From NCBI GenBank assembly GCA_002898255.1, contig BEIE01000001.1, forward strand, positions 434,001-498,000: DNA of 64,000 bases, in the 5' to 3' direction. Under the pieces are notes generated by a model. The model was not told the DNA's origin and ran no database searches. It worked only from the letters and a program-made list of their open reading frames with translations. Shown one piece after another: positions 3,629-44,137 of this stretch (position 1 is the stretch's first letter; each line of letters begins with the position of its first letter). The stretch comes from a bacterium HR28. Its GTDB lineage: Bacteria; Chloroflexota; Chloroflexia; Thermomicrobiales; Thermomicrobiaceae. The position numbers were made by a program, and so were the translations under genes.

Positions 3629-4654
3629 TTACCGTGCCTGGCGAGCTGGATCCTCCGGCCTCCTTGTGATGGCAAAGGTTGCAGCCGGGTCTTCGGCGGA
3701 GCGACGACCGCCAAAGATCATCGCGGCCCGCAACAGAAAGGCGCCACCGAGCGCAACCAAACTCGCAACTAGCCGCAGTGGTGGTCGAAGCCGGCGCGGC
3801 AGCATCTTGGTCACAATATGCAGGCCCAGGGCAACGCCAGCACTGAGGCGCGTGCCAGCGTAGGCCCACCCTTCTAGGCCATTGCTGAGCGGGCGACCAA
3901 CCACCGGCCCGCTCCCACGCTGCACCGCCTCGAGCAGCACAAGCTCTCCGAGGAGCGCAACCTGCTCCACCCGCTCGAGCGCATGGCGCGCCCGCGCGTT
4001 GCCCGGCCCGCGACCAACAAGGAGTGCGAGCATAGCGGCAGCACTGGAAAGCGCTGAGCAGAGGAAGAGTGGCCCCAGCCGCAGCGCGTTGCGGGCCCAC
4101 AGCGGCACTGCCGTCGCGCCGAGGAGCACACCCGTGTAGCCAGCAAGAAAGAAAGCTGGGAGTGTACTTGCGGCAGCAAGTATCCGGGCAGGAAGACGAC
4201 GCAGGAAGTGAGCAGCCGGATTGCGTTGTCCAAGCCACCCGTCCTCGGCTGCCTGCTGCAGAGCGTTGAGAAAGGCTGTGGCGGTGAAGCCGATGAGGCC
4301 CCAGACGCCAAGCGACATCGGTGAGCGCAATTTGACCACCCGCAGCATGTGGTGGAAACGCTCGGGTCGTCCGAGGTCGATGATGAGCAGCAGCGGCCCC
4401 GGCAGCACCGCTAAGAAGGCGAGGTAGCGACCAACACGCACAATCGGCCGTGCCCAGTGACCACCGACAAGCCGCGCCGCTGCCGCGAGCACTGCACTGC
4501 CGCCAGCGAGCCCACCCAGCACGAAATAGAACACGATCGACCATCGCCAGTGAGGGCCGTGGATGACCGGCAAGCCGTAGTAACTGTCGCGCGTCTCGGC
4601 ACTCACCGGCTCTCCTGGCGCACGCCGGTGCTGCCAGCGACGGATCTCAGTCAT
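3629..4654 (-). CDS. NrfD/PsrC-type membrane anchor of formate dehydrogenase
   Basis: This 341-residue integral membrane protein of the NrfD/PsrC/DmsC type has about eight predicted membrane helices and should pass electrons from the iron-sulfur subunit to the quinone pool. The N-terminus YYGLPVIHGPHWRWSIVFYF, followed by LGGLAGGSAVLAA, is the family signature. NrfD proteins bind quinone and carry no heme, unlike the cytochrome b subunit FdnI of E. coli. The ATG at 4654 lies directly after AAGGAGGTGCGCC and overlaps the stop of the iron-sulfur subunit gene by eight bases, so the three subunits are translationally coupled. It is the last gene of the operon. Confidence 0.9.
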   Translation of the reverse strand: MTEIRRWQHRRAPGEPVSAETRDSYYGLPVIHGPHWRWSIVFYFVLGGLAGGSAVLAAAARLVGGHWARPIVRVGRYLAFLAVLPGPLLLIIDLGRPERFHHMLRVVKLRSPMSLGVWGLIGFTATAFLNALQQAAEDGWLGQRNPAAHFLRRLPARILAAASTLPAFFLAGYTGVLLGATAVPLWARNALRLGPLFLCSALSSAAAMLALLVGRGPGNARARHALERVEQVALLGELVLLEAVQRGSGPVVGRPLSNGLEGWAYAGTRLSAGVALGLHIVTKMLPRRLRPPLRLVASLVALGGAFLLRAAMIFGGRRSAEDPAATFAITRRPEDPARQAR

Positions 4655-5498
4655 GGCGCACCTCCTTACTGCGCCAGAAGGTGACAAGTGTGGCGAGGCC
4701 GAGCGCAAGTGCCGCCAGTGCCGTGGTCAGAAAGGCGGGCAGGACACGTCGCTGCGGGAGTTCTGGCGCAGCTGGCAGGTTATAGACTTCGGGTGGCGCG
4801 GTCAGGATAAAGAAGGCATTGAGCCCGCCGATTCCCCCAGTGCCACCGAGCGCTTCGTCACCGTAGATCTGGGCTTCCACTCCCTGGGCACGGAGCTCGG
4901 CAACGCGCGCTTTCGCTCGATCCATCAGGGCATGCACCGGGCCGAACTGGATCGCATCGGTCGGACAGGCTTTCGAGCAGGCTGGCTCCAGGCCGTCCTT
5001 CAGCCGGTCGTAGCAGAGCGTGCACTTATGCGCTTTGCCATCAAGTGGGCTGAGCGCTGGGACACCGAAGGGGCACGCGGGAACGCAATAGCCGCAGCCA
5101 TTGCAAATGTCCTGTTGAATCACAACGGTGTCGAATTCGGTGCGGATAATCGCCCCGGTGGGACAGGCCTCCATGCATCCGGCATTGACGCAGTGTTTAC
5201 ACACATCGCTGAGCATCAGCCAGTTACTCTGGAAGGGCTGGAGACGCGTTGGACGTCGCCCCTCGCGATCGGCAACACGTTCGATGAAGGCGACATGCCG
5301 CCAGGTGGTTGCACCAAGATCACCGGTGTTGTCGTAACTCATGCCGGTGAAGCCAAAGTCGTCCATCGGCAGCTGGTTCCACTGCTTACAGGCAACCTCA
5401 CACGCCTTGCAGCCGATGCAGAGCGTGGTATCCGTCAGGAACCCAAAGGCACCGGGGCGAGCGCGCGTGCGGCCGACCAGCGTGCTCTCACGGCTCAC
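4647..5498 (-). CDS. formate dehydrogenase iron-sulfur (beta) subunit
   Basis: This 283-residue electron-transfer subunit has four ferredoxin-type cysteine groups: CIGCKACEVACKQWN near residue 28, CKHCVNAGCMEACP, CNGCGYCVPACPFG and CTLCYDRLKDGLEPACSKACP. Together they bind four [4Fe-4S] clusters, as in FdnH. A single hydrophobic helix at the C-terminus (about residues 250-273) should anchor it in the membrane, again as in FdnH. The start is a GTG at 5498, with GAGGAGGTGGGGCG upstream, overlapping the catalytic gene stop as GTGA. It lies between the selenoprotein subunit and the NrfD anchor. Confidence 0.93.
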   Translation of the reverse strand: MSRESTLVGRTRARPGAFGFLTDTTLCIGCKACEVACKQWNQLPMDDFGFTGMSYDNTGDLGATTWRHVAFIERVADREGRRPTRLQPFQSNWLMLSDVCKHCVNAGCMEACPTGAIIRTEFDTVVIQQDICNGCGYCVPACPFGVPALSPLDGKAHKCTLCYDRLKDGLEPACSKACPTDAIQFGPVHALMDRAKARVAELRAQGVEAQIYGDEALGGTGGIGGLNAFFILTAPPEVYNLPAAPELPQRRVLPAFLTTALAALALGLATLVTFWRSKEVRHD

Positions 5499-8400
5499 CG
5501 CCCCACCTCCTCTCGCAGCCGTCCCTTGCGGATCGTGCAGGTGAACGACTTGGCCTCGTGGATGAGCGAGTTGGGGTCTTCAACGAGTGCAGCGAGTTCG
5601 TTGGCGATGCCACCCGTTGCCAGCCCTCCAAAGCCAAAGTGCCAAGGCATGCCGATGACATGCACGGTTCGCCCTGCGATGACAAGCGGCTGGACACGCT
5701 CGGTCACCAGAGCACGGGCTTCTGCACAGCCGCGGGCAGTCTCAACGACGACCCAGTCACCGGTGCTGATGCCGAGTTCACGGGCGAGCTCCGGACTGAT
5801 CTCGACGAAGCCGGCGGGCTGCAACTCGGCCAGCCAGGGCACCCAGCGACTCATGCCACCAGCGGTGTGATGCTCAGTAAGACGGTAGGTCGTGATGACG
5901 TACGGATAGCGCGGGTCACCGATCTCATGATACGGGTTGTCTGGGCGGAGGAAGACTGGTGCCACCGGACTCCGTGGCTGCTCGGGATAGAGCGGGTTGG
6001 TGACCGGTGTCTCCCATGGCTCGTAGTGGGTAGGCAGAGGTCCGTCCAGGAGTCCAAGTGGGACGAAGAGCCATCCCTGTCCGTCAAGCATCATGATGAA
6101 CGGTGCCGTTCCCGGATGCGCATCAAGCCCACGAGCGTCCGGCGGCGACTGATAATCCGGTGGCTTGGTCGCAGGGAAGTCCGGCACATCGTAGCCGACC
6201 CACCGCTGCTGTTCGGGGTCCCACCAGATCCACTTCTTCCGTTCACTCCAGGGGCGTCCCTGGGGGTCAGCCGAGGCGCGATTGTACAGGATCCGGCGGT
6301 TGGCAGGCCAGGCAAAGCCCCAGTCGAGGCTGGCGCGATCATCGCCACGACGTCGCTTGGCACGGTGCTCCCCTTCGGGCGTGACGATGCCCGAATATAT
6401 CCAGCAACCGCAGGCCGTTGAGCCGTCATCAGCCAGCTCGTGAAAGCCCGCAACTGGGCGTCCATCGCTGACCCGGTATCCACTGACCTCACGAGCCACG
6501 GCCATGAGGTCGGGCTCCTGATGCGGTCCCACTGTTGGGTAATCCCACGTCAGTGCGGCGATTTGCCGACCAGCTGGTGAGTCATCACCGGCGTAGAGCT
6601 CCTTAAGGCGCCGCCCGAGATGGAAGACGAAGTGGGCCTCCGAGCGGGCGTCCCCTGGCGGATCGACCGCTTTGTCATGCCACTGGACGAGACGATGCGT
6701 GTTCGTGAACGTTCCGTCTTTTTCAGCAGCAATGGCCGCGGGGAGGAAGAACACTTCGGTCTTGATGTCCTGTGGCCGGACCTCGCCACTCCGCACCTCA
6801 GGAGCGTCATACCAGAAGGATGCGGTTTCAATCTCGTGGACGTCGCGAACAACGAGCCAATCGAGATTGGCTAATGCCTGGCGAGCCAATCGGGCGTTCT
6901 GGCCACCGACGGCCGGATTCATCCCCATGACGAAGAGACCTTTAATGATCCCGTCCTTCATCATGGTCAGAATCGATTGGAACGAGTAGTCGCCGCCAAT
7001 TTTCGGCAGGAGCTCGTAGGCGAAGTCGTTTTCCGGGGTTGCGGCATCTCCATACCACGCTTTGAGGAGAGAAATGAGGAACTTGGGCATGTCGTACCAG
7101 AGACCGGTTGCAGGGCGCTCATGGGCAAAGTAGTCGGCGAGCGTCGCATGCTGCGGGATTGCTCGGGGCATCTTCAGATACCCGGGGAGCAGGTCGAAGA
7201 GGGTCGGGATATCGGTGGACCCTTGGATCGTTGCGTGTCCCCGCAACGCGAGGATCCCACCGCCCGGCCGACCAATGTTGCCGAGCAGGAGCTGGAGCAG
7301 AGCACAGCAGGAAATGATCTGCGTGCCGATCGTGTGCTGCGTCCAGGCAACTGCATAGCAGAACGCTGTGGTACGGTCGCGGCCCGAGTTGGCAAGGATC
7401 GTCTCGGCGACTTCGACAAAGAGATCGCGGGGAACACCACAGGCTTGCTCGACGATTTCCGGTGTGTAGCGCGCAAAGTGGCGTTTCACCACCTGCAACG
7501 CACAGTTGGGGTGCTGGAGTGTCGGATCGCGCTCGGGTTCGATGCGCGGGCGACATGGCCAGCGCTCCCCCTCCAGTGGTTGTACCCGGCCAGCATACTG
7601 CCAGCTAGAAGGATCGTACCAGCGCTGCTGCGGATCGTAGCCGCTGAAAACCCCAGCCAAGTCTTCTGTATCACGGAAGTCGGGAGAGACGATCACACTG
7701 GCATTCGTGTAGTGCAGCACATACTCACGGAAGAAGGGATCGCTGTTCCAGCGCTCGGAGTTCAGGACGTAGTTCACCAGAGCGCCGAGGAAGACGAGGT
7801 CGCTTCCCGGGCGGATTGGCACGTGGAGGTCGGCCAGGGCCGAGGTGCGTGAAAAGCGGGGATCGACGTGAATGACGCGAGCGCCACGCTGGCGGGCCTT
7901 CACGACAAAGCGAAAGCCGACCGGATGGTTCTCGGCCATATTTGAGCCCATGATGACGATGCAGTCACTCTCGGCCAGGCTGGCCAGAGTGGTTGTTGCA
8001 CCACCTCGTCCGAGTCGGGCGCCCAGACCGGGCACCGTGCTGGAGTGTCATATGCGCGCCTGATTCTCGACGGCGACGATGCCAAGTCCACCGGTAAAGA
8101 GCTTTTTGATGAGGTAGTTCTCCTCGTTGTCCAGGGTCGCTCCACCCAAGTGCGCGATCCCCAGTGTTCGGTTGACCACCAGACCGTTTTCATCACGATG
8201 GACGAAGGTGGCATCACGGGTTTGCTTGACAAGCTGGGCAATGCGTTCCATCGCCCAGTCCAGGGAACGCTCCTCCCAATGGTCACTATAGGGTGCTCGA
8301 TACTTGACGCGGAGCTCGCGTAGCGGGCTGTGAATCAGCTGCCAGGTTGCTGCCCCTTTGGGGCAGAGGGTGCCGCCGTTGATCGGGCTTTCGTAGTTTC

Positions 8401-8584
8401 CTTCGATATCGAGGATATGGCCGTTCTTGGTATAGACGAGCTGGGAGCAGCCGACCGCACAGTATGGGCAGACGCTGATGCTCACCTCGGCACCACGGAT
8501 GCGGGACCGTGCCTGGCGTGTGGCCTGGCTTACTGGATTCGGAACTAAACCAATGTGATTGCGGAGGAGGTGAAAAAGACCCAT
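5495..8584 (-). CDS. fdnG: formate dehydrogenase catalytic subunit, selenoprotein
   Basis: This molybdopterin enzyme oxidises formate to CO2. The gene reads through an in-frame TGA at 8048-8050 as selenocysteine 179, giving 1029 residues, close to the FdnG/FdoG length. The context ENQARI-U-HSSTV matches the FDH active site, including the histidine after Sec, and a SECIS hairpin follows at once. The N-terminal [4Fe-4S] site is C39, C42, C46 and C74. The domain order is Fe-S, two central pterin-binding domains, and a C-terminal dinucleotide-binding barrel ending near GMPWHFGFGG. I see no twin-arginine signal, in contrast to FdnG, so the enzyme probably faces the cytoplasm. The ATG at 8584 has AAAGGAGG upstream; a GTG at 8605 is less likely. 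The gene symbol is by analogy. If the TGA is not read as Sec, two truncated ORFs result (8584-8048 and 8035-5495). Confidence 0.93.
8018..8050 (-). promoter_or_regulatory. Sec codon and bacterial SECIS element
   Basis: The TGA at 8050-8048 is followed by a perfect 7-bp stem, GGTGCCC (8036-8030) with GGGCGCC (8024-8018), closing the loop GGTCT (8029-8025). Exactly 18 bases separate TGA from GGTCT. As I recall it, E. coli fdhF has the same spacing and the same GGUCU loop, which is the SelB binding site. This is strong evidence for selenocysteine insertion. Confidence 0.9.
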
Positions 8585-8697
8585 CCTGTCTGTGCCTCCT
8601 TTCACCGTGGAACAGTTTACCGAGCGCGACGGGATCTCGGTTAGCAGGAGACACGGGCGATCGCTCCAGGCATGGTGAATTGCTGGAGGCTACCTGT

Positions 8698-8703
8698 ATT
8701 GTA
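8698..8703 (-). promoter_or_regulatory. possible -10 box for the formate dehydrogenase operon
   Basis: TACAAT on the minus strand lies about 115 bases before the catalytic-subunit start, in the 220-base gap after fmdB. No good -35 box is placed at 16-18 bases, so an activator may be needed, or transcription may come from the fmdA operon. Weak evidence. Confidence 0.3.
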
Positions 8704-8804
8704 GAGCGCCGACTCCGGAAGCCAGGTCACTTAGGCTATGGGTCTCACGCCATCAGTGCCCCTAGTCCCGTCACCTACCATCATCGCGCAGGGTAACTTC
8801 AGAC

Positions 8805-9104
8805 CTAGTGCCCAATCATCCAGGGGCGACCATGGGAGCGGTACCAACGCGGTCTCGGCTCGGGATCGGGCGCGGATAGGCCGAGTTCTTCACGAGAAAC
8901 CACACGAGGCTCATGCCGTGACCGCTCCTCACGTTCCAGCCCTTCGACAATCCACTTTGGAGTTCGCGGTACATTTGGCGGAGTGAAGAGGCGTCGTGCC
9001 AGCTTTCCGCAGTAAGGGCACGTCAATGGCGCCCCTGCATCAACGAGCGGTCGGCGAATCTCAAGAAGCCCGTCACTATCACACCAGTAAGCATAGAGCG
9101 GCAT
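8805..9104 (-). CDS. fmdB: FmdB-family zinc-ribbon protein
   Basis: This 99-residue protein begins MPLYAYWCDSDGLLE and carries CPYCG about 25 residues later. That gives the paired cysteines of the FmdB regulatory zinc ribbon, although the first knuckle has only one cysteine where CxxC is usual. In Methylophilus methylotrophus FmdB is linked to formamidase expression. The polar, Arg/Glu-rich tail is of unknown function. The ATG at 9104 follows GGGAGGATTCTG, and a longer in-frame extension to 9278 lacks a site. It sits 29 bases behind the amide channel gene, in the same transcript as fmdA, which supports the assignment. Confidence 0.85.
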   Translation of the reverse strand: MPLYAYWCDSDGLLEIRRPLVDAGAPLTCPYCGKLARRLFTPPNVPRTPKWIVEGLEREERSRHEPRVVSREELGLSAPDPEPRPRWYRSHGRPWMIGH

Positions 9105-9133
9105 CAGAATCCTCCCGAGAGCTGTCCCGTGTG

Positions 9134-9658
9134 CTAGGCAACGACCGGTTGTAGGTGGCCCATGATGATAAGATAGCCTGGCAACCAGGCGGTAAAGATC
9201 CCCTCCAGGATAGTCAGCCAGGCAACAAGGGATAGGGAAATTCGTCGAGGAACAAGAAGCAGAAAGTAAAAGAACCAAAGCACAGCCCAGGCCAACCAGT
9301 TAATGGTCAACCAATAGCCCCAGGTCGTAGCGGCTCGGATGGCAGTTTCAATTCCGACTGCAACTGCTGTAATGGCCACAAATAGACAGAACCAACCGAG
9401 ACCACGCCCGTCAAAGCTGAAGATACGGTTGATAGCCACCCACAAGTAGGTGAAGGCGAAAAGAAGGACGAGCGCACCAAATGAAACCCTATTGATGTCG
9501 TCCGGATTTCTAACCGCAGTTGTAATTGCTGCAATGAAACCAACTGTGCCGCTGAAGAGGTTAATCACCGCGATTTCGCGATCACCAATCCGGCCACCGA
9601 GCCACAGTCCATTCAGGAAGAGAACAGCACCAACCCAGAGAAGCACAAGGCCAATCAT
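9134..9658 (-). CDS. AmiS/UreI family amide/urea channel
   Basis: This 174-residue, strongly hydrophobic protein has about six membrane helices and the family start IGLVLLWVGAVLFLNGLWLGG. AmiS/UreI proteins are channels for urea or short-chain amides in the cytoplasmic membrane. Placed 86 bases after formamidase and before fmdB, it most likely admits formamide. The ATG at 9658 follows GGGAGGCACTTGCT. The gene ends 29 bases before fmdB. The urea alternative is less likely because no urease genes are seen in the window. Confidence 0.9.
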   Translation of the reverse strand: MIGLVLLWVGAVLFLNGLWLGGRIGDREIAVINLFSGTVGFIAAITTAVRNPDDINRVSFGALVLLFAFTYLWVAINRIFSFDGRGLGWFCLFVAITAVAVGIETAIRAATTWGYWLTINWLAWAVLWFFYFLLLVPRRISLSLVAWLTILEGIFTAWLPGYLIIMGHLQPVVA

Positions 9659-9744
9659 AGCAAGTGCCTCCCTATCCGGGGGCGTGGTCGCACCGGGCAT
9701 CATCCCGGTGCGACCACCTGACACTACGCGGCTTACGCAACGAC

Positions 9745-10998
9745 TCACGTTGCACGCGCGACCTGTCCGCTGGTCGGTGCGGTTGGCGGTTCTTCAGGCA
9801 GAATTGGTCGCTCAAAGATCTCTGTTGGAAGATACAATGTCACGCACGCATTAGGAATATCAACGATTCCGCTTACCCGAACCTCGATCGGAGCAGCGCC
9901 AAGGATAATGTATGCCTGCTCAGCAGTATAGCCGAATTTCTTCAGATATTCGATAGCATTAAGACAGGCCCGACGCATCGCTACAGTTGCATCAAGGTAG
10001 AGCTGCTTGCCCGTCCTTTCGTCAACTGAGATGCCCTCAAAAACGAGATAGTTCGTGTAGCGAGGTTCATAAGGGCTCGAACGGAAGATGGGATTCGTGA
10101 TTCCATACTTTGCCACACCACCTTTGATCAGGTCAACGTGGAGATCAATCCAACCTGCCATTTCGATAGCGCCGCAGAACGTAATCTCACCGTCACCCTG
10201 GGAGAAGTGAAGGTCACCCATAGAGAGCTTGGCACCAGGTACATACACAGGGAAGTAGCAACGCGAGCCACGGGTAAGGTTTTTGATGTCACAGTTGCCG
10301 CCGTGTTCGCGTGGCGGAATAGTACGCGCGGCCTCGCGTGCGGCTCGTTCGAACTCAGGCCCCTTCAGTGTGCCGAGTACGGCATTCTTCTCGAGAGGGG
10401 GTAGCGCGAGGGGTGGTACTCGGTTTGGATCAGTGGCGATAAGCTCCGCTTCACGTCGGTTCCACTCCTGCAGGAGTTCGTGCGACGGAGCGCAACCGAT
10501 CAACCCAGGATGGGCAATACCTACGAAGCGTACACCCGGCACATGTCGAGAAGTGCAGGTTGTGCCGTGAAGATCCCAAATTGCCTTATAAGCATCAGGG
10601 AAGTAGTCAGTGAGAAAGCCTCCCCCATTTACCTTCGCAAAGATACCTGTATAGCCCCACTCTGTGGTTGGCGAGTTGTGCGGTGTCTTCGTTCCGTGTG
10701 GAAAAGGACCAAGGTCAAGGATGTCAACGATGAGGAGATCTCCAGGCTCAGCTCCTTCTACCGCTATTGGGCCACTCAGCACATGATTGCGAGTCAGATC
10801 GACGTCACGGACATCGTTCGCAGAATCATCGTTGCGAATTTGTCCGTCTGTCCATTCCTGACATTCCACCCTGAAGACCTCGCCTGGTTTCACTGATGCT
10901 ACCGGAGGGATATCAGGGTGCCAGCGATTGTGCCCGGGAACAGGTTGCTCTGGCCAAGGCTTTGTCAGGTCAACCTCGAAGACCACCTTTGGGGGCAT
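9745..10998 (-). CDS. fmdA: formamidase
   Basis: This 417-residue enzyme of the acetamidase/formamidase family hydrolyses formamide to formate and ammonia in the cytoplasm. The length and the sequence, including MGDLHFSQGDGEITFCGAIE, HGGNCDIKNLT and RYTNYLVFEG, are typical of FmdA. The formamidase candidate catalytic residues in this family are acidic residues and a cysteine in the GDGEITFCGA region, which is intact. The ATG at 10998 follows GGAAGGAGG by five bases. It is the first gene of a transcript that continues with the amide channel and fmdB and perhaps the formate dehydrogenase, which would consume the formate made here. A strong promoter lies at 11197-11225. Confidence 0.93.
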   Translation of the reverse strand: MPPKVVFEVDLTKPWPEQPVPGHNRWHPDIPPVASVKPGEVFRVECQEWTDGQIRNDDSANDVRDVDLTRNHVLSGPIAVEGAEPGDLLIVDILDLGPFPHGTKTPHNSPTTEWGYTGIFAKVNGGGFLTDYFPDAYKAIWDLHGTTCTSRHVPGVRFVGIAHPGLIGCAPSHELLQEWNRREAELIATDPNRVPPLALPPLEKNAVLGTLKGPEFERAAREAARTIPPREHGGNCDIKNLTRGSRCYFPVYVPGAKLSMGDLHFSQGDGEITFCGAIEMAGWIDLHVDLIKGGVAKYGITNPIFRSSPYEPRYTNYLVFEGISVDERTGKQLYLDATVAMRRACLNAIEYLKKFGYTAEQAYIILGAAPIEVRVSGIVDIPNACVTLYLPTEIFERPILPEEPPTAPTSGQVARAT

Positions 10999-11046
10999 GG
11001 TTTTCCTCCTTCCCTGCACCGGTCAGGGCATTCCTGCAACCAAGGG

Positions 11047-11070
11047 GGCTGTGAACCCGCAAACACAGCC
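11047..11070 (-). repeat. leader hairpin upstream of fmdA
   Basis: In the roughly 190-base leader of fmdA, GGCTGTG and CACAGCC form a perfect 7-bp stem with a 10-base loop. A smaller CCCTG/CAGGG stem lies just before the ribosome binding site. I match no known riboswitch class to it. Confidence 0.45.
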
Positions 11071-11196
11071 TTCTCCTCGCCATCCATAGATGCCAAATAA
11101 CCGAGATTAGGATGGCCTGAAGGTGCAGATATGCTTGTGGCCCTAACAGCCTACCTTCTCACCTTGAATGGTTGTTTATACTGGTGATCCGGATAC

Positions 11197-11225
11197 AGCA
11201 TAACACCTTTCCAAGGGGGTGTCAA
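11197..11225 (-). promoter_or_regulatory. sigma70-type promoter of the fmdA operon
   Basis: TTGACA (11225-11220), a 17-base spacer and TATGCT (11202-11197) give a near-consensus housekeeping promoter on the minus strand. Transcription would start near 11190. The rest of the gap up to 11428 shows no gene. Confidence 0.75.
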
Positions 11226-11428: not shown

Positions 11429-12187
11429 CTACTCTAATCCTTCACTGACCTTTGGCACCGTTGTTGGCGGTGTTCCACTACTTCTGTACCCAAACTGCAC
11501 AAGGGCACGGCGCCAGGCATGCTGCTCTGTGCCGCGTGGTTCGTGCGCGTACCGGTAGTCGGCCTTGCGGAAGAACTCGTCGAGATCGTGCTTGGTTGCC
11601 TCAAGCTCCGCCTGCAACACCTGTAGGACGAGCAGCAGCCCACGCTGTTGCTCCCATCGCGCCGACCGTGCAACACGCAGAGCGTGCGGAACGCAGCAGC
11701 CACCGACCTCGACGAAGCGAGCACGCAGTGTTTCGTCGTACTCCAGAGCTTCCAGCAGCATGGGAATAAAGCTCTCCTGTGTCCGCTCAATCACGTCGCA
11801 GAAGAGACACCCAGCGGTTGGTTGGAGCACTCTGGTCGCCCCTTTGCGCCAGGCTCGGATTCGCGAAGGTCTCTTCTCCGCAACTGCTGCGAGTGAGGTG
11901 CGGAGAGCAGCCAGCAGATCCTCGATGATCCACGAAAACATTGCCGAGACCTGCCACTGCGGTCCACGCTCAGCGACGAGTTTCAGGTGCTCCGCGCAGA
12001 AACCACGCGACTGAACATATTGCAGGACGACCTCAGGCTCCCCGTACGACTCATGAAAGAACCAAAAGAGAAACCGCTCGAGCGCTTCTGCTTCAGCGTG
12101 GCAGAGTGGGCAGCCCGACTTGACAAGCAGATGACGGACCTCGGCGATCACGTAGCGCGGCGGAACTCCACGGTGTGCTGTCTTCAT
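11429..12187 (-). CDS. Cys/His-rich protein of unknown function, DUF6062-like
   Basis: This 252-residue protein has two similar halves. Each carries a CxxC pair followed 35-38 residues later by a CxxH: C26/C29 with C64/H67, and C127/C130 with C164 or C165/H168. The halves look like two metal (zinc or iron-sulfur) sites in a helical frame. From memory it resembles the DUF6062 type of uncharacterised proteins, but I am not certain. No signal peptide or membrane helix is visible. The ATG lies six bases after the universal stress protein stop, so it is the third gene of the antiporter-Usp operon. A link to redox or stress sensing is only suggested by context. Confidence 0.75.
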   Translation of the reverse strand: MKTAHRGVPPRYVIAEVRHLLVKSGCPLCHAEAEALERFLFWFFHESYGEPEVVLQYVQSRGFCAEHLKLVAERGPQWQVSAMFSWIIEDLLAALRTSLAAVAEKRPSRIRAWRKGATRVLQPTAGCLFCDVIERTQESFIPMLLEALEYDETLRARFVEVGGCCVPHALRVARSARWEQQRGLLLVLQVLQAELEATKHDLDEFFRKADYRYAHEPRGTEQHAWRRALVQFGYRSSGTPPTTVPKVSEGLE

Positions 12188-12193
12188 GGCTGG

Positions 12194-12619
12194 TTACCAA
12201 CGCACCACCAAGACGCTGCACGGTGCATGGCGAACAACCTTGTCCGCGGTCGTGCCCAGGAAGACACCCCAGACCCCAGAACGACCACTGTGGCCGATTA
12301 CTAAGAGGTCGAAGTTGCCACGCTGGGCTTCTTGGACCAGCAGCTGCGCGGGATGTCCCATGCGCGTGACCGCATGGAGTTCGATCCCATATTCCGCCGC
12401 CTGTTGGCGAGCAAGCTGCTGTAAGCGCTCGAGCTCTTGCTCGAGCAGTCGGCGTTGCTCATCGATCTCACCGACTGTTGCCGTTACCCAATGGGGTGTC
12501 TCGATGACGGAGAGACTCCAGAGCTCGGCATCAAAGGTACGGGCGAGTTCAATGGCATGGCGCATTGCTGCCTTCGCACCATCTGAGCCGTCAAAGCCGA
12601 CAAGGATTTTGCGGTACAT
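12194..12619 (-). CDS. universal stress protein (UspA family)
   Basis: This 141-residue single-domain Usp begins MYRKILVGFDGSDGAKAAM. Near the C-terminus it has the ATP-binding loop pattern GHSGRSGVWGVFLGTT, followed by HAPCSVLVVR, so it is of the nucleotide-binding type. Such proteins often sit next to transporters and adjust them to energy state. Here the gene begins five bases after the antiporter stop, which supports a regulatory role for that antiporter. The ATG at 12619 follows GAGAGGAGTAACAGCT; an upstream extension to 12706 is not needed. Confidence 0.9.
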   Translation of the reverse strand: MYRKILVGFDGSDGAKAAMRHAIELARTFDAELWSLSVIETPHWVTATVGEIDEQRRLLEQELERLQQLARQQAAEYGIELHAVTRMGHPAQLLVQEAQRGNFDLLVIGHSGRSGVWGVFLGTTADKVVRHAPCSVLVVRW

Positions 12620-12624
12620 AGCTG

Positions 12625-13800
12625 TTACTCCTCTCGTGCGACTGCTGCTCCGACCGGTGCTGACTTGTCGCTCGCCGTCTGTGAGGGAACGTGCGGTAGA
12701 AACCACGTCTGGGCAATCCAGGTGGGGAGCAACGCCGAGCCGATGACAGCAGTGACAAGCGCAGTGTATTGGGCACGGTCAATAATCCCATTATTGAGCC
12801 CGAAGAGCGCCGAGATAGTGCCGAAGGTGAGTCCAGTTGACATTAGTAGGGTGGTGTAGGCTCCGCTCCGGCGCCCCAGACGAAACAGTGCGGTGAGCGG
12901 ACCAACCCCGATCAACTTGGCCAGCGTTTTCACGAGCAACAATGCGACCACAAGACCGAAGCCACTGATGAGGGCTGGAAGAGAGACATAGAGCCCTGCC
13001 TTGAGGAAATACCAGGGTGTCAGCAGTGCGAAAGCGATCGTCCGCAGGCGCACCATCAGCGTCCGCTGGTGCGTGAAAATCCCGGCGACGACCAGACCGA
13101 CAAGGTAAGCCGGGAGCACGGCCTCGCTTTTCGCTCGCGTGGCCAGCCAACCGAGGAAGAAGAGGACCAGCAAGAGGAACTTCACTTCCGGCTCACTCAC
13201 CCGGTTTCCCCACACGGTGACGACGAAGTGCGTCGCCCGCGGGAGAAGGGCCAAGACAGTTGTCATAGTGACGACAAAAACGATCAGCCACCGGTTGTAG
13301 TTGGCAAAGATGAGTCCCAAGGCCAAAACGGTACCGAAGTCGTTCACAAAACAGGCAGCGAGGATTAGCTTGCCGAGTTCAGTTTCATTTAGGCCAGTCT
13401 CGACCATGACGGCATAGACGACCGCGACAGAGGTTGTTGAGAGCGCAATGCCAGCAATCCAGGCCTGCGGCGTTGTCCAGCCAGCGATGAAGCGGGCAAA
13501 AGCTGCAGCGCCGAGGAAGGGGAAGAGAAAACCCGCTATACCAATGGCCAGGCTCGGCTTGAGGTGGCGGCGCAGCGCTTCTGGTTCGATCTCTGCGCCA
13601 GCCAAGAACGTCAGCAGTACCGCACCAAAGCTGGCAAACGTGTTGATCCAGTCAGTTACCTGGAGATGAAGGAGATTACCCGCCGCAACGCCAACCAGGA
13701 TCTCTAAGAGCGCAACTGAGATACCAAGGCGGATCGAGAAGAGACTGGCAACGAGCGCAAGTCCGGTCCACACCGCCGCCATTGCCCAGGTCTGTTCCAT
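12625..13800 (-). CDS. CPA2-type cation/proton antiporter
   Basis: This 391-residue polytopic membrane protein with about 12 helices belongs to the Kef/Na+-H+ exchanger (CPA2) family. Features include LTFLAGAEIEPEALRRH in helix 3-4, the GIALSTTSVAVVYAVM segment, and the FVNDFGTVLALG segment carrying the ND pair that matches the usual ND or DD ion-binding site. It ends without a TrkA-N domain, so regulation may be through the Usp protein encoded next. The ion (Na+ or K+) cannot be told. The ATG at 13800 follows GGGGGTAACACC. A structured leader and a promoter lie upstream. Confidence 0.9.
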   Translation of the reverse strand: MEQTWAMAAVWTGLALVASLFSIRLGISVALLEILVGVAAGNLLHLQVTDWINTFASFGAVLLTFLAGAEIEPEALRRHLKPSLAIGIAGFLFPFLGAAAFARFIAGWTTPQAWIAGIALSTTSVAVVYAVMVETGLNETELGKLILAACFVNDFGTVLALGLIFANYNRWLIVFVVTMTTVLALLPRATHFVVTVWGNRVSEPEVKFLLLVLFFLGWLATRAKSEAVLPAYLVGLVVAGIFTHQRTLMVRLRTIAFALLTPWYFLKAGLYVSLPALISGFGLVVALLLVKTLAKLIGVGPLTALFRLGRRSGAYTTLLMSTGLTFGTISALFGLNNGIIDRAQYTALVTAVIGSALLPTWIAQTWFLPHVPSQTASDKSAPVGAAVAREE

Positions 13801-42661: not shown

Positions 42662-44137
42662 ATGGCTCGCCTGCGCATCGCGATCGCTGAACTCTCTCAC
42701 GAGACAAACTCCTTTTCCAGCGTGCCGGTCGACCTAGCCTTCATCGAGCGTTGCGGGATTGCCCGCGGAGCTGCCGTCCTTGAACAGGCACGCGACACCG
42801 CGACAGTGCTCGCTGGCTTCATTGACGCTGCCGCAGAACTGGGACTGGAGCTCCTGCCCTTGCTTTCCGTGTGGATCACGCCCGCGGGAAAAGTCACACG
42901 TGAAGCATACGAGACACTTGTCGCAGAACTTCTCGCGGACATTGAGCGTGCGCAGCCGCTCGACGGCATCCTGCTGTCACTGCACGGCGCGATGGTCGCC
43001 GAACACGTATCCGACGGCGATGGAGAACTTCTCCGTCGGGTGCGGGCGCTGGTTGGGCCACGCGTTCCGATCGTTGCAGTACTCGACCTGCACGCCAATA
43101 TCAGCCCTCTCATGGTCGAGCAGGCCGACATCCTCCTTGGTTACCATACCTACCCGCATGTTGATCAGCGAGAGCGCGGACAGCAAGCTGGTCAGCTTCT
43201 CTTTCGCTTGCTTCGTGGTGACGTTCATCCGACCGCCGTGTTGGTCAAGCCGCCGATGCTGCCGACGTCCCAACGGATGACGACCGATCGCCCACCAATG
43301 CGCACGCTTCTCGACCGAGCTGAGGCGATGGAAGATGATCCGCGTGTGCTGGACGTGACGATTGCCGGCGGTTTCCCGCCCGCCGATGTTCCGGAAGCCG
43401 GGTTGAGTATCTTGGTCACAACCGATGGGGATCCAGCACTCGCGCGACAGCTCGCTGACGAGTTGGCCGCGCTCGCTTGGGAGCTCCGCCATGGCTTTCT
43501 CGGCGGAGTGGCAACGTGGGACGAAGCAGCTGCAGCAATCCGTGCGATCGAGCGTGGGCCACTCGTGCTGGTTGATATCGCCGACAACCCTTGGACTGGC
43601 GGTCCGGGCGACAGCGTAGAGCTCCTGCGCTTCTTGCTCCGGCAAGAGGCACGACCAGCTGCTCTCGCGCTGGTGCGAGACCCTGAGGTCGTGGCCTACT
43701 GCTGTCAGGCGGGCGTGCGCGCGACGGTGGACGTCTTGCTCGGTGGGAAGACCGACAACTTGCATGGTCCACCGTTGGCCGTCCGGGGAGTGGTCCGGCT
43801 GCTCTCGGACGGTCGGTATGTGAATGCCGGCCCGATGCACGCTGGAGTGACGGTGGATCTCGGCCGAACGGTTGTGCTCGAGGTCGAGGGAATCGCCGTC
43901 ATTGTGACGGAGCGTGCCGAGTCTCCGATTGATCTCAATGTCTTTCGATCGCACGGGATTGAGCCGACCGAGCAACGCATCCTCGCACTGAAGGGCAAGG
44001 GACACTTTCGCGCAGCCTTCGAGCCGATTGCTGAGCGGGTAGTGCTCGTGGAAGGCCCAGGGATCACAGGGAGCGACCTTACTCGTCTTCCCTTCCGCAA
44101 CATCCGCCGGCCAATCTGGCCGCTCGACCTCGCTTGA
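42662..44137 (+). CDS. M81-family metallopeptidase (MlrC-like)
   Basis: This 491-residue member of peptidase family M81 is named for MlrC, which degrades linearised microcystin. Characteristic segments are RIAIAELSHETNSFS at the start, LLSLHGAMVAE, AVLDLHANIS, GYHTYPHVDQRERG with likely zinc-binding histidines, and DIADNPWTGGPGDS further on. Most family members are of unknown substrate. It closes a three-gene catabolic run behind serS and ends two bases from the convergent smc gene. Confidence 0.9.
   Translation: MARLRIAIAELSHETNSFSSVPVDLAFIERCGIARGAAVLEQARDTATVLAGFIDAAAELGLELLPLLSVWITPAGKVTREAYETLVAELLADIERAQPLDGILLSLHGAMVAEHVSDGDGELLRRVRALVGPRVPIVAVLDLHANISPLMVEQADILLGYHTYPHVDQRERGQQAGQLLFRLLRGDVHPTAVLVKPPMLPTSQRMTTDRPPMRTLLDRAEAMEDDPRVLDVTIAGGFPPADVPEAGLSILVTTDGDPALARQLADELAALAWELRHGFLGGVATWDEAAAAIRAIERGPLVLVDIADNPWTGGPGDSVELLRFLLRQEARPAALALVRDPEVVAYCCQAGVRATVDVLLGGKTDNLHGPPLAVRGVVRLLSDGRYVNAGPMHAGVTVDLGRTVVLEVEGIAVIVTERAESPIDLNVFRSHGIEPTEQRILALKGKGHFRAAFEPIAERVVLVEGPGITGSDLTRLPFRNIRRPIWPLDLA

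Follow-up and report, generated by a model that had tools for sequence, protein, structure and literature searches.

Why do genes for the use of formamide adjoin those of a selenium-containing formate dehydrogenase (FDH) on the minus strand of a heat-loving bacterium of the Thermomicrobiaceae, bacterium HR28? The earlier note on this DNA, a window of 64,000 nucleotides, had read seven features as a chemically closed route: a promoter, a formamidase, a channel, FmdB and the three FDH subunits. All seven indeed lie on the minus strand, and the coordinates given for them are right. Whether the two halves would work together, or stand side by side for other reasons, is considered here from the genes themselves, from their relatives and from the fluoride context of the locus.

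Organization of the gene row

As a unit, the block proposed by the earlier note was cut too short. Further genes precede it on the same strand, and the block makes up the second half of the whole row, which is headed by a fluoride riboswitch (RF01734, 13876-13954, 46.8 bits against a gathering threshold of 34). This riboswitch has a counterpart at the same position in seven further genomes of the family. The riboswitch is followed, from 5′ to 3′ on the minus strand, by the genes for a CPA2-type cation/proton antiporter (12625-13800; PF00999, 132 bits; TIGR00932, 111 bits), a universal stress protein (Usp; 12194-12619; PF00582, 131 bits) and a DUF6062 protein (11429-12187; PF19538, 75.5 bits). 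Then come fmdA (9745-10998), amiS (9134-9658), fmdB (8805-9104), fdhA (5495-8584), fdhB (4647-5498) and a gene for an NrfD-like membrane subunit (3629-4654). The DUF6062 gene and fmdA are separated by 430 nt, fmdA and amiS by 86, amiS and fmdB by 29, and fmdB and fdhA by 220 nt. The pairs fdhA/fdhB and fdhB/nrfD overlap.

The gene identities given by the earlier note are borne out by curated cut-offs, that of FmdB marginally. FmdA exceeds the NCBIfam formamidase equivalog cut-off (NF045496, 684 bits against 500) and matches PF03069 with 614 bits; its best solved relative is the formamidase 2WKN (559 bits), and it carries no export signal. The AmiS/UreI-type channel is covered by the PF02293 profile over positions 1-165 of 166 (183 bits), with a weaker match to the Helicobacter pylori UreI structure 3UX4 (72 bits). 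The small zinc-ribbon protein FmdB is narrowly above its cut-off (TIGR02605, 31.9 against 31.3), the Pfam zinc-ribbon model staying below its own. A second amidase of the FmdA/AmdA family, 42% identical, is encoded elsewhere in the same genome (G000 C6:124928-126019); most of the family has an amidase of this kind, congeners devoid of fmdA among them.

The TTGACA-17-TATGCT site with an extended -10 element that was proposed as the fmdA promoter (11197-11225, 10/12 match) has no conserved counterpart ahead of fmdA in the sister genus. The count of promoter-like sites in the region is no better than chance, three where shuffled sequences give an expectation of 2.3, so that it is by its position that the site at 11225-11197 is assigned to fmdA. 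Before fdhA, on the other hand, a TAnACT box stands 28-31 nt ahead of the start codon in all five congeners compared, fmd genes being present or absent; in the window it reads TAAACT (8614-8619, 29 nt before the start) and is a possible -10 element. Because this alignment holds regardless of the fmd genes, FDH may be transcribed from a promoter of its own, and the two halves may be regulated independently, an outcome that the earlier note had named as refuting its reading. No minus-strand terminator-like site is listed in the 220-nt fmdB-fdhA gap, so read-through from fmdB into fdhA is possible. None is listed in the 430-nt DUF6062-fmdA gap either.

Two observations concern other parts of the window. 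At 1329-2103 on the minus strand, two neighbouring ORFs resemble by eye a nucleotidyltransferase (GSYARGDAGVGSDVD) and a HEPN-type partner, and similar sequence was seen by eye between an fmdB remnant and fdhA in two congeners (L091 and L197). A single tRNA was called in the window, a tRNA-Ala(GGC) of 94 nt (43563-43656, plus strand), unusually long for a tRNA-Ala.

The formate dehydrogenase and its predicted compartment

FdhA exceeds both alpha-subunit cut-offs (TIGR01553, 1010 bits against 814; NF041513, 1510 against 1400). FdhB, the iron-sulfur subunit (Fer4_11, 85 bits), scores below the FDH-beta cut-off (TIGR01582, 183 bits against 335), and because of this score the enzyme is classed as FDH-N-like and not as FDH-N proper. 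It shares a selenocysteine-containing FdhA and an iron-sulfur FdhB with the FDH-N types of Escherichia coli (FdnGHI, 1KQF) and Desulfovibrio gigas (1H0H), from which the window FdhA differs by the absence of a Tat signal. The NrfD-like subunit (PF03916, 97 bits) presumably stands where FdnI has the cytochrome b subunit, and quinone would, from what is known of this family, be the electron acceptor.

As the earlier note proposed, the enzyme appears to be a selenoprotein. The in-frame TGA of fdhA (8048-8050) aligns with the selenocysteine position of 1H0H and 1KQF and is common to all members of the class inspected. The genome itself encodes a complete set of selA (549 bits), selB, selC (73 bits) and selD (360 bits). 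Decoding of the TGA as selenocysteine is thus supported by the sel set and by the same TGA in the inspected class members. A hairpin 11 nt after the TGA (GGUGCCC-GGUCU-GGGCGCC, 8018-8036) is at most suggestive as a SECIS element, its z-score of -1.5 not being beyond shuffles. The selD gene (C1:1068420-1069352) contains one in-frame TGA, and the selenophosphate synthetase is probably a selenoprotein itself.

The bacterium has two selenocysteine FDHs. No twin-arginine (RR) motif is found at the start of the window FdhA, nor in 29 further loci of the same FDH in the class. The second enzyme (L096 6548-9628, contig C2) starts with SRRQFLKVGG, a typical Tat signal; neither a fluoride riboswitch nor fmd genes are seen near it. 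The FDH beside fmdA is therefore predicted to be oriented towards the cytoplasm, the compartment in which FmdA would release formate, the missing Tat signal being the single criterion for this topology. Since the fmd-linked FDH is the one devoid of a Tat signal, the formamidase and FDH steps would share one compartment. Of the functional arguments for coupling, this predicted colocation is the strongest that the analysis gave. The idea of a chemically closed route is supported.

Distribution and history of the cassette

An fmdA of the window type is above the cut-off in 7 of the 158 genomes of the class, all from one family. The fmd genes are closely linked to FDH in the window genome, in Thermalbibacter longus (G115) and in Bacterium HR26 (G116). 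In G118 the linkage runs across a contig break: one contig closes with fmdA followed by the beginning of amiS, and amiS-fdhA opens another. The linkage is looser in Sphaerobacter (G112-G114), where amiS and fdhA are 1.9-4.5 kb apart, within 5 kb. In one of these genomes (G114) opposite-strand ABC-transporter-like ORFs occupy the gap, and in Sphaerobacter cassette and FDH are not one operon. Wherever the two are linked, the cassette is upstream of FDH and in the same direction. In a further genome (G111) a distant fmdA (55% identical) lies on a contig other than that of its FDH and is uninformative.

Outside the family, 75 fmdA loci were surveyed, using a threshold of 200 bits for a homologous FDH alpha subunit; in 53 of these loci the sequence reaches 5 kb or more to each side of fmdA. 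None of the 75 has one, so that a general fmdA-FDH linkage is rejected. Yet fmdB is found within 3 kb of fmdA in 62 of these loci, and amiS in 44. Thus, fmdA-fmdB-amiS is a widespread cassette, and its link with FDH belongs to the Thermomicrobiaceae. The fmdB-amiS-fmdA order of Actinomycetota and the fmdA-fmdB order of Cyanobacteriota and Alicyclobacillus (L104-L180) illustrate this: the cassette genes are the same, with no homologous FDH in reach. In Methylophilus methylotrophus, the fmdCABDEF cluster likewise unites genes for a formamidase, FmdB and a dedicated uptake system, the amide serving as nitrogen source; however, uptake relies there on a porin and an ABC transporter instead of an AmiS/UreI channel, and no FDH genes are named (PMC10781810). 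No report of a natural fmdA-FDH linkage was found in the parts consulted of the open-licence literature on formamidase and FDH together, on the genera Thermomicrobium and Nitrolancea, on Chloroflexota and on the fluoride riboswitch.

A separate and weaker parallel exists in another phylum. In Bacillus chungangensis (L173, 4576-11179), fmdA is divergent from genes for an MFS transporter, an FdhF/YdeP-type oxidoreductase and an FdhD-like protein. A formamidase gene thus again stands beside FDH-like and FdhD-like genes, but the enzyme is of the FdhF/YdeP family, the genes are divergent with the transporter between them, and a single genome is concerned. In Thermoactinospora, an FdhF/YdeP-type gene neighbours fmdA at a distance, with unrelated genes between.

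Within the family, the history of the cassette is not a simple one. In the FmdA tree, the window and the Thermalbibacter group are placed next to Rubrobacter, and Sphaerobacter falls within a different clade of mainly actinobacterial sequences, which it shares with a proteobacterial MAG. A single family clade of FmdA costs 105 log-likelihood units and is rejected (AU p 2.9e-64). Gene order and FmdB identities point the same way: fmdB is divergent from fmdA-amiS in Thermalbibacter and Rubrobacter, and Sphaerobacter and the proteobacterial MAG have fmdB-fmdA-amiS in one direction. AmiS, in contrast, forms one family clade (support 98/97), for which a single arrival is not rejected as it is for FmdA. 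Because FmdA shows two lineages and AmiS one, either this FDH received two cassettes, or fmdA-fmdB were replaced on the spot next to a retained amiS. In both histories, the position of the cassette was kept or regained.

The cassette is optional even within the genus of the window. Most congeners have no fmdA, and an intact copy is missing from the well-assembled ones. Two of them (G120 and G124) pass directly from the DUF6062 gene to fdhA, a clean absence; G122 retains a frameshifted fmdB and, of amiS, the final 25 codons, and G123 the tail of fmdB only. In the sister genus, G117 has a truncated amiS and no fmdA. The earlier note had named absence of the linkage from all close relatives as an outcome that would refute it. 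This is not what was found: the linkage recurs in other genera, namely in the Thermalbibacter group and in Sphaerobacter, although it does not extend to the congeners just described. FDH itself is found across the class, with no fmd genes in most relatives, and is the older part. The cassette is an add-on that was exchanged and lost in the family, and its benefit is therefore probably conditional. The linkage is, in sum, real, partly conserved and chemically sensible, and built from known parts.

Formamide, formate and fluoride

In our view, it is fairly probable that the fmd cassette, set in front of an older, cytoplasm-facing FDH, couples formamide use with cytoplasmic formate oxidation. Formamide would enter the cell through the AmiS channel. 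In the cytoplasm FmdA would hydrolyse it to formate and to ammonia, which would serve as a nitrogen source. FDH at the inner face of the membrane would oxidise the formate to CO2, and the electrons would reach (mena)quinone by way of FdhB and the NrfD-like subunit. The gain would be to clear the formate made from formamide and to take its electrons. Substrate flow, quinone acceptor and co-expression are here inferred from the genes. Coupling is favoured by the presence, beside the same FDH, of FmdA from two separate lineages for which one clade is rejected, and by the linkage in the window genome, G115, G116 and G118, and within 5 kb in the three Sphaerobacter genomes. The lack of such an FDH in the 75 outside loci, the predicted side of the enzyme, the gene identities and the complete sel set speak for it too. 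It is also favoured by work on engineered hosts, in which formate from formamide is reported to be inhibitory and addition of an FDH has been used to relieve the inhibition (PMC10781810). It is weakened by the lack of fmdA in most congeners, by the 220-nt gap and the TAnACT box, which suggest a separate FDH promoter, by the Sphaerobacter layout, and by the single clade of AmiS.

Alternatively, a mobile fmd cassette may have lodged beside FDH by chance, nitrogen use being regulated separately and the formate being excreted or directed to formyl-tetrahydrofolate; an ORF that reads as a formate-tetrahydrofolate ligase in the same genome would fit the latter fate. Such an unrelated neighbourhood would agree with a cassette that is common outside the family with no FDH, with its clean absence from G120 and G124 and with a possible separate FDH promoter. 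It accounts poorly, however, for the fact that three genera have the cassette beside the same FDH while their fmdA genes come from two lineages, for a cassette always upstream and in the same direction, and for its choice of the FDH without a Tat signal and not the Tat-bearing one. We regard it as unlikely. Somewhat more doubtful still is the idea that the whole row would be a fluoride or acid-stress module under the riboswitch, where the antiporter would balance ions, FDH would use protons, and the formamidase and the UreI-like channel would add ammonia, nitrogen nutrition being secondary. This idea draws on the order riboswitch-antiporter-Usp-FDH, which eight genomes from three genera share (the window genome, G115, G116, G117, G118 across a contig break, G120, G124 and G125), the row-heading riboswitch being the best RF01734 match in each. 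In Thermalbibacter, crcB (the only copy found) and DUF190 are inserted between amiS and fdhA (L081 11197-12145, minus strand); crcB encodes a fluoride channel, of which DUF190 is the usual partner. G111 has two crcB genes some 1.4 kb ahead of fdhA, from which a gene on the opposite strand separates them. The 430-nt DUF6062-fmdA gap argues against control of the cassette by the riboswitch. So does the reversed fmdB of the Thermalbibacter group, which points against the riboswitch transcript and makes it unlikely that this transcript would reach fmdA there. Besides, Sphaerobacter has cassette and FDH with no fluoride riboswitch, and none was seen beside FDH in the inspected loci of other families of the class.

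Provided that quinone takes up its protons from the inner side, electron transfer to it from a cytoplasm-facing FDH would remove one proton from the cytoplasm for each formate, which would suit HF stress. Helicobacter uses amidase and urease against acid stress. By analogy, it may be imagined that inner-face formate oxidation in the Thermomicrobiaceae is a fluoride-induced module for proton removal and pH defence, supplied in genomes with the cassette by formate and ammonia that arise in the cell from formamide, where channel and formamidase would act as UreI and amidase do in Helicobacter, a conjecture to which we give a small probability. In published surveys, Na+/H+ antiporters are listed under fluoride riboswitches, as is formate hydrogen lyase (PMC2864571, PMC11139923). 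Those rows share with the window a riboswitch, an antiporter and a formate-oxidising enzyme, but the window has a membrane selenocysteine FDH with no hydrogenase genes, plus the formamide cassette. The association of formate-oxidising genes with fluoride-responsive rows was noted in 2010 (PMC2864571), and the parts of the literature searched held no tested explanation for it. The row described here gives a concrete setting for this question.

An FDH was what engineers added as a remedy for formate. Natural genomes of the Thermomicrobiaceae place a formamidase by an FDH predicted to face the cytoplasm, and the exchange and decay of the cassette among relatives allow close species with and without it to be compared.
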